A DNA stretch of 64,000 nt, from assembly GCA_022360095.1 (NCBI GenBank), contig JAKSDK010000448.1:124001-188000 (forward strand), in the 5' to 3' direction. The translations under genes and the position numbers were made by a program. Below, one piece after another: positions 28,342-31,738 of this stretch (position 1 is its first letter; the number at the start of each line of letters is the position of its first letter). Source of the stretch: Phycisphaerales bacterium. Its GTDB lineage: Bacteria; Planctomycetota; Phycisphaerae; UBA1845; UTPLA1. The notes under the pieces are model-generated. The model saw only the letters and a list, made by a program, of their open reading frames with translations. It did no database searches and was not told the origin of the DNA.

Positions 28342-28938
28342 ATGGAACCCGAATCAACTCAGCCATCCCTGTTACATCGCGTTCGTGACACCTCCAATCG
28401 AGCCGCCTGGCGTGAGTTCGACCGAAAGTACGGGGACTTGATCATCGGTTATTGCCGAAGTTGCGGACTGCAACTGTCGGATGCGGAAGACGTACGGCAA
28501 CTTGTTATGCTCAATCTATCCAAAGCGCTCCCGGCCTTCGAATACCAGCCGGGCCTCGGGCGATTCCGCGACTATCTGCGACGAGTCGTCCGAAATTCCA
28601 TCTCCCGTCAGCTAACACGTCACACAGGCAGCGAAACAGCGCTAGATAACGATGTCCTGGAAGCTTTGAGTGATCCGGGCGCAGAGGAGTCGGACAGCCG
28701 ATGGGAAGAACAATGGGTTCGCCAGCATTGCCGAACGGCATTGCAAACTCTGCGGCAATCGTATGACACGCGCAGCATCGAAGTATTCGACCACTTGCTT
28801 TCGGGGGCGACCATCACCGAGGTCGCTAGTGCCTTTCAAATGACACCCGTCGCCGTGCGAAAGGCCAAGCAGCGCGTCAAGGATCGCTTACAGGTCATCC
28901 TGGCCCGGCAGATCCGTGACGAGGACGCTCATGCGTGA
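28342..28938 (+). CDS. ECF-type RNA polymerase sigma factor
   Basis: 198 residues. Region 2 (about 22-95) has FDRKYGDLIIGYCRSCGL, SDAEDVRQLVMLNL and GRFRDYLRRVVRN; region 4 (about 140-185) has a helix-turn-helix with TITEVASAFQMTPVAVRKAKQRV. This places it among planctomycete ECF-like factors that accompany Ser/Thr kinases. It directs RNA polymerase to a specific regulon, probably under control of the kinase. It overlaps the kinase ORF by 8 bases, so the two are coupled. No anti-sigma factor is seen. Confidence 0.9.
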   Translation: MEPESTQPSLLHRVRDTSNRAAWREFDRKYGDLIIGYCRSCGLQLSDAEDVRQLVMLNLSKALPAFEYQPGLGRFRDYLRRVVRNSISRQLTRHTGSETALDNDVLEALSDPGAEESDSRWEEQWVRQHCRTALQTLRQSYDTRSIEVFDHLLSGATITEVASAFQMTPVAVRKAKQRVKDRLQVILARQIRDEDAHA

Positions 28939-31738
28939 TTCCAGTCATCCACAATCGAACATGGAAGACAGCGACCCTGACCTGAATCCATTTGGTTTCG
29001 ACGACCCGGAAGACACCTGGATGAAACATTTCCAAGCAGCCGATCTGCCGGCCTCACTCGGGAGCATCGGACCGTACGAAGTCATCCGTGAAATCGGTCG
29101 AGGAGGACAAGGCGTCGTGTATCGCGCTCGCCAGCAGGGCACGGATCATGACGTGGCCGTCAAACGGCTGATTGCCGGAACATGGGCATCCACCGATATG
29201 CGACGGCGCTTCGAACGCGAAATTCACGCCGTTTCCACCCTGGATCATCCGAACATCGTCAACGTCTCCGCGCTGGACCTGATCGACGGTCAACCCGTTC
29301 TTGCGATGGAATGGGTCGAGGGCATGTCCATTACCCAATGGGCGGCGGCCGCACCCGCAAAAAACACGGAAGACGCGCCCACCACCTCCCGCGCACCCAG
29401 CCGAGAACCATCCGAGATGATCGAGTTGTTCCTACAGGTATGCGGTGCCGTCCATCATGCACATCTCCACGGCATCATTCATCGGGATCTCAAGCCGAGT
29501 AACATTCTCGTTGTGGAAGAAGAGGCCAAGGGGCCCAGGGGCCAAGTGGCAGAGGGAAGAGAAATAGTGACACCACCCTTGGGGCCTCGGACCCTTGGCC
29601 CCTCGGACCCTTCTTCGGCCCAGCCGAAGATCCTCGACTTCGGACTGGCCAAACTCATCCAACCCCCGACCAAAAGTGAGGACGCGGTCACCGCGACGGA
29701 ACAATTCGTGGGAACACCCGCATATGCATCCCCGGAGCAAGTCCAAAGCACGTCCGATCAAATCGATATCCGAACGTATATCTACTCGTTAGGCGTGATT
29801 CTGTATGAAATGCTGACCGGCCGGAAACCCTACCCCGTGGACGGCCCCCTGGTCGATACGCTCCAATCCATTCGCCAAACACAGCCCGCGCGACCTTCAT
29901 CGCTCGCACGAAACTTGAATCGCGAACTCGACACCATCCTCTTAAAAGCATTGGCTAAAGAGAAGGAGCAGCGCTACCAATCCGTGGAAGCGTTCGCCGG
30001 TGACCTGAAACGGCACCTCGCCGGCGAGCCGATCCTCGCGCATCCTCCGAGCGTCTTGTATCAACTCCGCAAACTGGCGGGGCGACACCGAATCGCGTTC
30101 ATTTCCGCCGTAGTCATGCTCATCATGCTGTCCGGCTTTGCGATTGTCGCCTTCTGGCTGGCCGACGCCGCCATGAGCGCGCGCGAAGAGGAACGCAGGG
30201 CCCGTCTTGTGGCCGAACAGGTCAGCGCTTTTCTCGGCGACACGCTCGCATCGGCACGACCGTCGCGAGGCGGACCCGACGTCACGCTCCTGGAAGTCCT
30301 GAAAGATGCGAGCAAGCGCGTCGACCTGGAGCTGAAGGATCAACCTCAGGTTGCGGCTGAGGTGCATTATGCAATCGGCGGCACCTACAAATCACTGTGG
30401 CGCTGGCAGGAAGCATTGCCCCACGCCCAACAAGCGCTCGCGCTCACTCGAAAACTGCACGATCAGGATCATGAAAATCTGGCCAAGTGCCTGACGGCGT
30501 TGGGACGAGTGCAGACCAGCCTCCAAAACCCGGAGTCCGTTGCGCTGCAGCAGGAAGCCCTCGACATGCGGCGGCGTTTGTACGGTGACACACATCCGCT
30601 CGTCGCCCAAAACCTCAAGGAGTTGGCCTATGCTCTGCATCAAGGCGCGGAGAAACCGAAATATCACGAGGCAGAAGCCTTGTTTGAAAAGGCCCTGGCC
30701 ACTTACAAGCGCTGCCCCGGTGACCATCATCGAGAAATCGCCTCTTGCCTGCACAGCTACGGATGGATGTACGCCCGGCAAAACCGACTCACCGAAGCCA
30801 TCAAATTCTACAAGGAGGCGCTCACGATCTTCCGCGCGAGGAACAATCGCACGAACCCGTTTTATGCGGAATGCCTTTACGGATATATCGCTCTGCTTAG
30901 AGCATTGGGAAGATATGAGCAGGTCGTCCTGGAGTCGGCCGAAGCGATTCCCCTGCTACGGAAGACCTATGGTGAATCCGCGCTGTTCGAACCTCTATGG
31001 TTGCGCGGCTTCGGTCATAATGCACTAGGACAATACCATGAGGCCCAGAACACCTACGAGCAAGCCTTCAACGCACTTTGCCTGAAAATCATCGAGGACC
31101 TGCCACAGGAGTCCCATGATTTGTATCAAATAAGAGGAGTCATCGCTCGGGCCGCTCAAGAGGACGATGTTCCGCTACCCTATCAGGACCTTTTGAATGC
31201 CCTGACTCCGTTGCCGACAAAAGCGCGACGCCAAATAACGTTCATCTTCGACCTCTACGCAAAGTCCCTGATCGACTCGGGTGAGCTTGAAAAAGCAACG
31301 GAGATCTACAACGGACTCATGCGGGTCCCACCGAATGACGGTCGGGAGATCAACCCCAGGCTGATGAACGTCGCACTGGAGGGACTCGCGAACATTGCCC
31401 AGAAGGAGGGCCGGACGGCGGAAGCCCATGCGTTGTTGTCCGATTGTCTCGATATCCTGGCGGACAATCTGCCGCAATCGAAAATGAGGCATGCTCAAAT
31501 TCAAAGCAGAATAGGCGATTGCCTCATTGAACTCGGGCGATATTCCGAGGCCGAAGAATACCTCACGCAGAGCCAACCCGTCCTTAAGGCCGATTTTGGG
31601 CCGGCACATAAGAACACGCTCGCCGGCCGCGATCGCCTCGTCCGCCTGTACGAAGCCTGGGGGCAACCCGACAAAGCTGCTGAATGGAAAACATCTTTTA
31701 ACGCGACACCAAAACCGGACGCCGCGAGAGATGAGTGA
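28931..31738 (+). CDS. Membrane-bound Ser/Thr protein kinase with TPR tail
   Basis: 935 residues from the ATG at 28931 with GAGGA 6 bases upstream; a GTG at 28916 is less likely. Kinase motifs: GRGGQGVVY, Lys78 in VAVKR, HRDLKPSN with Asp186, DFG with Asp236. HRD and DFG are 50 residues apart rather than about 20, because of a Pro/Gly-rich insertion (about 197-230). In the later DxYSLG motif the usual Asp is Tyr (RTYIYSLG). One transmembrane helix (about 390-415) follows, then roughly ten TPR-like units outside the membrane. It probably senses partners through the TPRs and signals to the coupled sigma factor; this is inferred. Confidence 0.93.
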   Translation: MRDSSHPQSNMEDSDPDLNPFGFDDPEDTWMKHFQAADLPASLGSIGPYEVIREIGRGGQGVVYRARQQGTDHDVAVKRLIAGTWASTDMRRRFEREIHAVSTLDHPNIVNVSALDLIDGQPVLAMEWVEGMSITQWAAAAPAKNTEDAPTTSRAPSREPSEMIELFLQVCGAVHHAHLHGIIHRDLKPSNILVVEEEAKGPRGQVAEGREIVTPPLGPRTLGPSDPSSAQPKILDFGLAKLIQPPTKSEDAVTATEQFVGTPAYASPEQVQSTSDQIDIRTYIYSLGVILYEMLTGRKPYPVDGPLVDTLQSIRQTQPARPSSLARNLNRELDTILLKALAKEKEQRYQSVEAFAGDLKRHLAGEPILAHPPSVLYQLRKLAGRHRIAFISAVVMLIMLSGFAIVAFWLADAAMSAREEERRARLVAEQVSAFLGDTLASARPSRGGPDVTLLEVLKDASKRVDLELKDQPQVAAEVHYAIGGTYKSLWRWQEALPHAQQALALTRKLHDQDHENLAKCLTALGRVQTSLQNPESVALQQEALDMRRRLYGDTHPLVAQNLKELAYALHQGAEKPKYHEAEALFEKALATYKRCPGDHHREIASCLHSYGWMYARQNRLTEAIKFYKEALTIFRARNNRTNPFYAECLYGYIALLRALGRYEQVVLESAEAIPLLRKTYGESALFEPLWLRGFGHNALGQYHEAQNTYEQAFNALCLKIIEDLPQESHDLYQIRGVIARAAQEDDVPLPYQDLLNALTPLPTKARRQITFIFDLYAKSLIDSGELEKATEIYNGLMRVPPNDGREINPRLMNVALEGLANIAQKEGRTAEAHALLSDCLDILADNLPQSKMRHAQIQSRIGDCLIELGRYSEAEEYLTQSQPVLKADFGPAHKNTLAGRDRLVRLYEAWGQPDKAAEWKTSFNATPKPDAARDE
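29523..29610. repeat. Palindromic repeat inserted in-frame in the kinase gene
   Basis: Positions 29530-29546 and 29594-29610 are inverted copies matching at 15 of 17 bases around a core AGGGGCCAAG. The right arm is also a near-exact direct duplicate of 29578-29594 (15 of 17). The block keeps the frame and encodes the extra segment between HRD and DFG. It looks like a small palindromic element rather than native kinase sequence. Confidence 0.6.

Follow-up and report, generated by a model that had tools for sequence, protein, structure and literature searches.

The host kinase and its extended linker

The window, that is, the whole 64,000-nucleotide stretch of DNA that we analysed, carries on its plus strand a 940-codon open frame (28916..31738) for a Ser/Thr kinase with C-terminal TPR repeats, to which profile search assigned Pkinase PF00069 (E 1.3e-42) plus TPR families. 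The kinase ORF begins within a sigma-factor-like gene on the same strand (28342-28938; Sigma70_r2, E 2.4e-8); pairing of sigma and kinase genes is common in planctomycetes. The catalytic motif HRDLKPSNIL (29480..29509, plus strand) and the DFG motif (29636..29644, plus strand) lie to the left and right of an insert, and the 42-codon linker between them (29510..29635, plus strand) houses a mobile unit, whereas about 45 of the 75 loops read in the same genome have 10 residues there. An earlier note on this DNA had proposed both the extra residues between HRD and DFG and the preservation of the reading frame, and both claims hold, the frame staying open through the whole TPR-kinase ORF.

When PknB was aligned to the window kinase, the match ran to ILVV and resumed at PKILDFG, with about 4 residues between (PknB 151-154), and solved kinases likewise have only about 4 residues at the insert position. 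Because so few PknB residues separate the two blocks, the insert falls in what we take to be the β7-β8 turn of the kinase fold, between the catalytic loop and DFG. Upstream of the catalytic loop is a further stretch of low complexity (AAAAPAKNTEDAPTTSRAPSREPS, 29336-29415, plus strand), 13 residues longer than that of the G016 orthologue. G016, a genome of the same family, has the best orthologue of the window kinase (45% over 713 aa), and its linker comprises 17 residues without the repeat.

Architecture of the palindromic insert

In the insert, a G-rich 8-nt unit (AGGGNNNR / YNNNCCCT) forms two arrays, inverted relative to each other, on either side of a short spacer; all features are given here on the plus strand. 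The G-rich arm (29521..29555) consists of the degenerate octamers AGGGGCCC and AGGGGCCA, a decayed unit and AGGGAAGA; the spacer (29556..29574) is shared with the copy at C196:102643 (L112); and the C-rich arm (29575..29612), the inverse of the G-rich arm, reads CCCTTGGG, GCCTCGGA, CCCTTGGC, CCCTCGGA and CCCTT. To the right, within the conserved right end, folding of the copies places a small hairpin, CTTCGGC-cca-GCCGAAG (29613..29631), whose helix is paired in 88% of cells across copies.

Reverse-complement comparison recovered the inverted arms that the earlier note had described (29530-29546 and 29594-29610, 15 of 17 matching), and the repeat finder both extended them to 29528-29555 and 29585-29612 (28 nt, 82% complementary) and located the partly overlapping direct duplicate at 29575-29590 and 29591-29606. 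The block first reported, 29523-29610, is therefore a real palindrome, but the mobile unit exceeds it, running from about 29510 to 29630, from GTTGTGG to CAGCCGAAGAT. Although the arms are inverted, these two ends are not inverted copies of each other. The ends recur, GTTGTGG in 12 of the 16 kinase copies and CAGCCGARAT in 14, and loops without the insert do not have GTTGTGG as one of their common left ends.

Copies in the same genome

A 116-bp query returned nine kinase copies at E below 1e-5 in the same genome, and with this query the spacer found no match there outside kinases. The tandem octamer pattern gave 92 genome matches against 5 for the reversed control, and the palindromic pattern 28 (7 distinct elements) against 0, so both exceed what chance would give. 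All seven strict palindromes lie in kinases. About half of the tandem-octamer clusters do so as well, and the remainder consists largely of single-arm arrays in intergenic DNA or at the ends of genes, with about 10 single-arm arrays outside kinases.

PF00069 has 127 matches in the genome, amounting to about 110 kinases; 75 catalytic loops were read, and a few kinases, along with about 13 whose Pfam matches are split, were left out. The octamer palindrome occupies 16 of the 75 loops, at the same site, in frame and nearly always with identical ends, giving linkers of 36-42 residues (42 codons in 10 of the 16). In about 10 loops the turn holds other, unrelated inserts 20-45 residues long, which indicates that it is permissive. 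The expectation of dispersed copies is thus met by the 16 kinase copies and the roughly 10 single-arm arrays elsewhere, as is that of an orthologue lacking the segment by the G016 gene; according to the earlier note, the idea would have failed if all orthologues carried the segment or the repeat existed nowhere else, and neither is the case.

A G4-type motif or its C-rich mirror occurs in 15 of the 16 kinase copies versus none of the 59 other loops, and a four-G-tract motif on the coding strand in 13 of the 16 versus none of the 59; the window copy lacks both, and these are motif matches only. At L130 (G000:C1133:34070-35005), an octamer palindrome with other ends sits at the same kinase turn, possibly as an independent arrival. 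In the roughly 13 kinases with split Pfam matches (for example C797:9470-10366, C196:368160-369044 and C1152:28196-29080), the gap lies near profile positions 91-100, which suggests that this kinase family has another hotspot for insertions.

Constraint on DNA, RNA and protein

Compared with synonymous recodings of the same peptide, most of the inserts form far more stable folds (z to -4.9), which places the signal in the DNA. The window copy folds no better than ordinary recodings (z -1.3); its sisters attain z -4 to -5, and on this ground it is a decayed copy. We rejected a selected RNA hairpin, since pairing across copies was 82.2% versus 82.9% in shuffles and covariation was no higher than in shuffles. 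The invariant AGGG/CCCT positions pair and the variable positions drift; the complementarity thus reflects the shared octamers, and the palindrome stems from the way the repeat is built rather than from being kept as an RNA structure.

At the protein level, a peptide of the form VVxEGAEGxRxQG...PRxLGPSxPSSAQPKIL recurs, and it appears to be weakly constrained; the insert pN/pS of about 0.5 leaves room for mild constraint on the protein and hence for a function. Linker sizes among the copies differ by whole codons, not by octamers, from which we infer that selection keeps the reading frame.

Movement of the insert between kinase paralogues

Several lines of evidence, all drawn from sequence comparison, show that the insert sequence has moved between paralogues, because copies up to 98% identical sit in distant paralogues whose flanks are at background. 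Insert DNA identity is 98% for L150/L157, 92% for L097/L146 and 90% for L112 and the window copy, and the flanks of these pairs are 60-72% identical, with 56-73% given for 300-bp flanks. Across copies, insert similarity does not track flank similarity (r 0.15 and 0.07), and pS is 0.175 inside the inserts versus 0.63 in adjacent codons. Mapped onto a tree that was built from the 75 kinase domains without their linkers, insert presence requires 15 changes, and shuffled labels require 14.7 on average. Only 11 branches of this tree are starred; these alone force at least 4 changes, and the number of independent transfers remains unresolved. The close paralogue pairs L122/L153 and L124/L157 differ in insert presence.

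The exchanged tracts are of different lengths. In L150/L157, identity covers HRDLKPAN, the insert and DFG and drops to about 0.5 beyond them; third-position identity in the HRD block is 0.9, a value reached by 0.4% of 2775 kinase pairs. In some high-identity pairs such as L096/L097, third-position identity stays at background right up to GTTGTGG, and the tract shared by L096 and L097 is GTTGTGG...CAGCCGAAGAT, so that exchange can involve no more than the insert itself; this pattern would fit site-specific insertion as well as conversion over very short homology. We infer that gene conversion is the simplest route of transfer, with site-specific insertion as its rival.

Octamer palindromes in other genes and genomes

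A pattern scan found no strict palindromes in 16 genomes of the same family, and overall they occur in 4 of 61 genomes (G000, G019, G035 and G050). In G050, whose sequence equals that of Phycisphaerales bacterium 7-NCT_044 at two loci, DnaE, IleRS and an Fe-S oxidoreductase each contain octamer palindromes in frame, the oxidoreductase being named from its motifs and lacking a Pfam hit at 1e-15. The matches listed from a scan of named genomes include Acidobacteria, Desulfobacterota, Nitrospirota, WOR-3, Bacteroidota and cyanobacteria, with phylum and organism titles taken as deposited. Among the matches listed in other phyla, palindromes are in frame in a P-type ATPase, UPF0176, a LysA-like decarboxylase, an SLT protein, CarB and a glycosyltransferase (loci L206, L215, L217, L229, L235 and L262), and in CarB the domain CPSase_L_D3 spans the palindromic insert. 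On the minus strand at L177 (G012), a single-arm octamer array lies in frame within a MutL linker.

DnaE orthologues were compared in the family of G050 (26 genomes, 25 loci, 24 loops read). The loop between FTVVY and FGLAA (L303-L327) ranges from short and repeat-free to palindromic octamers of differing types: GGGGCCRA in G050, GGGATCRA in G032 and G019, GGGACCRA in G041 and GTGGGAAC in G064. In G032, G041 and G064 the loop uses the dialect of the genome's own genome-wide arrays, judged from the arrays listed; for G050 and G019, agreement was judged from the strict palindromes of those genomes. The DnaE loop is a hotspot to which insertions have come repeatedly in this order, and the short repeats filling it differ between genera.

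Origin and spread of the insert

We consider it probable that the insert is a G-rich octamer repeat, selfish or neutral, which persists as protein where loops are permissive and has spread among the kinases mainly through ectopic gene conversion; both the conversion mechanism and the neutral or selfish status are inferences. The insert would be a small non-autonomous element, the palindromic form of a genome-wide octamer family that is mostly intergenic or at gene ends. The proposed course would begin with two steps for which direct evidence exists, namely octamer palindromes in frame in conserved proteins of several lineages, and one such palindrome at the catalytic loop-DFG turn in at least 16 kinase paralogues, with its sequence moved between them. 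The remaining steps are inferred. Ectopic gene conversion would account for most of the movement, the homology arms being the HRDLKPxNIL and KILDFG DNA conserved in about 110 paralogues, and hairpin- or G-quadruplex-prone DNA would perhaps promote breaks or template switching; a G4-type short repeat undergoing slippage and template switching may be the first source of the units themselves and of their turnover. The encoded peptide would be tolerated as a flexible Gly/Pro-rich loop. Nothing identifies an enzyme for the movement of the insert.

Another possibility, unlikely but still to be reckoned with, is a site-specific mini-transposon of the RPE/MITE kind, in which a transposase or recombinase repeatedly targeted the same 20-30 bp kinase motif and the paralogues were hit independently. 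The sharp bounding of identity by GTTGTGG and CAGCCGAAGAT in several pairs with flanks at background, the possible independent arrival at L130 and the presence of Y1-transposase genes in the genome all speak for it, but no spacer-bearing source copy was found outside kinases, the L150/L157 identity reaches into both flanks, an octamer array lies at just 1 of 10 Y1-transposase loci, and Y1 genes are also present in G002, a genome without the palindrome. Mobilisation by a RAYT was rejected, nearly all Y1 genes having no adjoining octamer arrays. We think it improbable that the insert is a functional protein cassette, a Gly/Pro-rich loop that regulates or docks kinases and was shuffled by selection like a domain. 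Its consistent length, recurring peptide and pN/pS would agree with such a role, yet the same DNA design occurs in unrelated proteins, other octamer dialects encode other peptides, most copies fold far beyond synonymous recodings of the same peptide, and most paralogues and the G016 orthologue lack the insert.

A single ancestral insertion, by which one founder kinase was duplicated and its insert DNA then held under strong constraint, would account for the common ends and site; it is disfavoured by the tree and divergence data and strikes us as very improbable, since the copies are scattered on the kinase tree, insert similarity does not track flank similarity, close pairs differ in presence and no covariation points to a constrained hairpin. 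That the pattern is an assembly or binning artefact of a fragmented, 1918-contig MAG with 3.5% contamination is scarcely credible: the copies sit on many long contigs in intact ORFs with different flanks, always in frame, and the same phenomenon appears in other genomes.

Beyond this genome, we put forward only tentatively, and with more doubt than assurance, a widespread and undescribed class of genome-specific G-rich octamer palindromes that repeatedly invade the same permissive loops of essential proteins (the DnaE loop, the kinase β7-β8 turn, IleRS and CarB), keep the dialect of their genome and can sweep paralogous families. Protein-coding palindromes have so far been treated as peculiar to Rickettsia, Wolbachia and a few others; a comparable process is at work in planctomycetes and, probably, in many phyla, touches essential enzymes and appears to start from ordinary G-rich short repeats, with repetitive "non-coding" DNA repeatedly turning into protein. 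The 16 kinase copies and the series of DnaE loops offer natural experiments on how repeats become protein, how dialects are maintained and how far sequence is exchanged among bacterial paralogues.

Comparison with known systems

In the literature on planctomycete octamers, kinase gene conversion and coding palindromes, with subscription journals mostly outside its scope, we found the element undescribed. PARCELs are likewise palindromic protein-coding DNA that spreads in genomes, but they form tandem 25-residue amphipathic domains, mostly in membrane proteins, in contrast to the single enzyme-loop inserts here (PMC2996958). The coding palindromes of Nematomorpha mitochondria also place inverted repeats within functional protein genes; there both arms encode conserved parts of the protein, whereas the kinase palindrome is extra sequence (PMC6649704). 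The REP/RAYT arrangement, with palindromes flanking a Y1 transposase, is not met, an octamer array being near 1 of 10 Y1 loci.

Among known DNA, the insert comes closest to the G4-type heptamer repeat of Xanthomonas and Nostoc, the G-quadruplex-forming GGGNATC / GGGGA(C/T)T described, in the passages available to us, by Rehm et al. (2015, PMC4692102). According to those passages, these repeats share with the kinase element genome-wide tandem G-rich arrays, usually of about four units, mostly intergenic and with some close inverted pairs. Their unit is 7 nt against 8 nt here, so that genome-wide arrays are present but G-tracts every 7 nt are not; four G-tracts able to form a quadruplex are met as a sequence motif, without folding data. 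The heptamers are reported to be under-represented in coding regions, whereas the kinase element lies in coding DNA, and the parts of PMC4692102 that we consulted describe neither in-frame insertion into a conserved domain nor spread through a gene family.

The earlier note had likened the insert to Rickettsia palindromic elements (RPEs; Ogata et al. 2000, 2002), which we know from a summary in PMC10969869. As described there, RPEs resemble the insert in being palindromes of about 100-150 bp that keep the frame of the conserved genes they occupy and are presumably translated into a loop the protein tolerates. They are spread over unrelated genes and fall into families, each having a conserved peptide. 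The likeness stands insofar as the palindrome is in frame within protein-coding genes, not only in the kinases but also in DnaE and IleRS of relatives and in other phyla. It does not extend to the arms, which are degenerate octamer arrays with a unit that varies between genomes, nor to dispersal in many unrelated genes: in G050 unrelated genes are hit, but in the window's genome the full element is confined to one homologous site in one gene family, in 16 paralogues that have exchanged it. Judged by analogy, no RPE sequence having been compared, the insert works like an RPE but appears, from its octamer anatomy and its confinement to one site, to lie outside that family.
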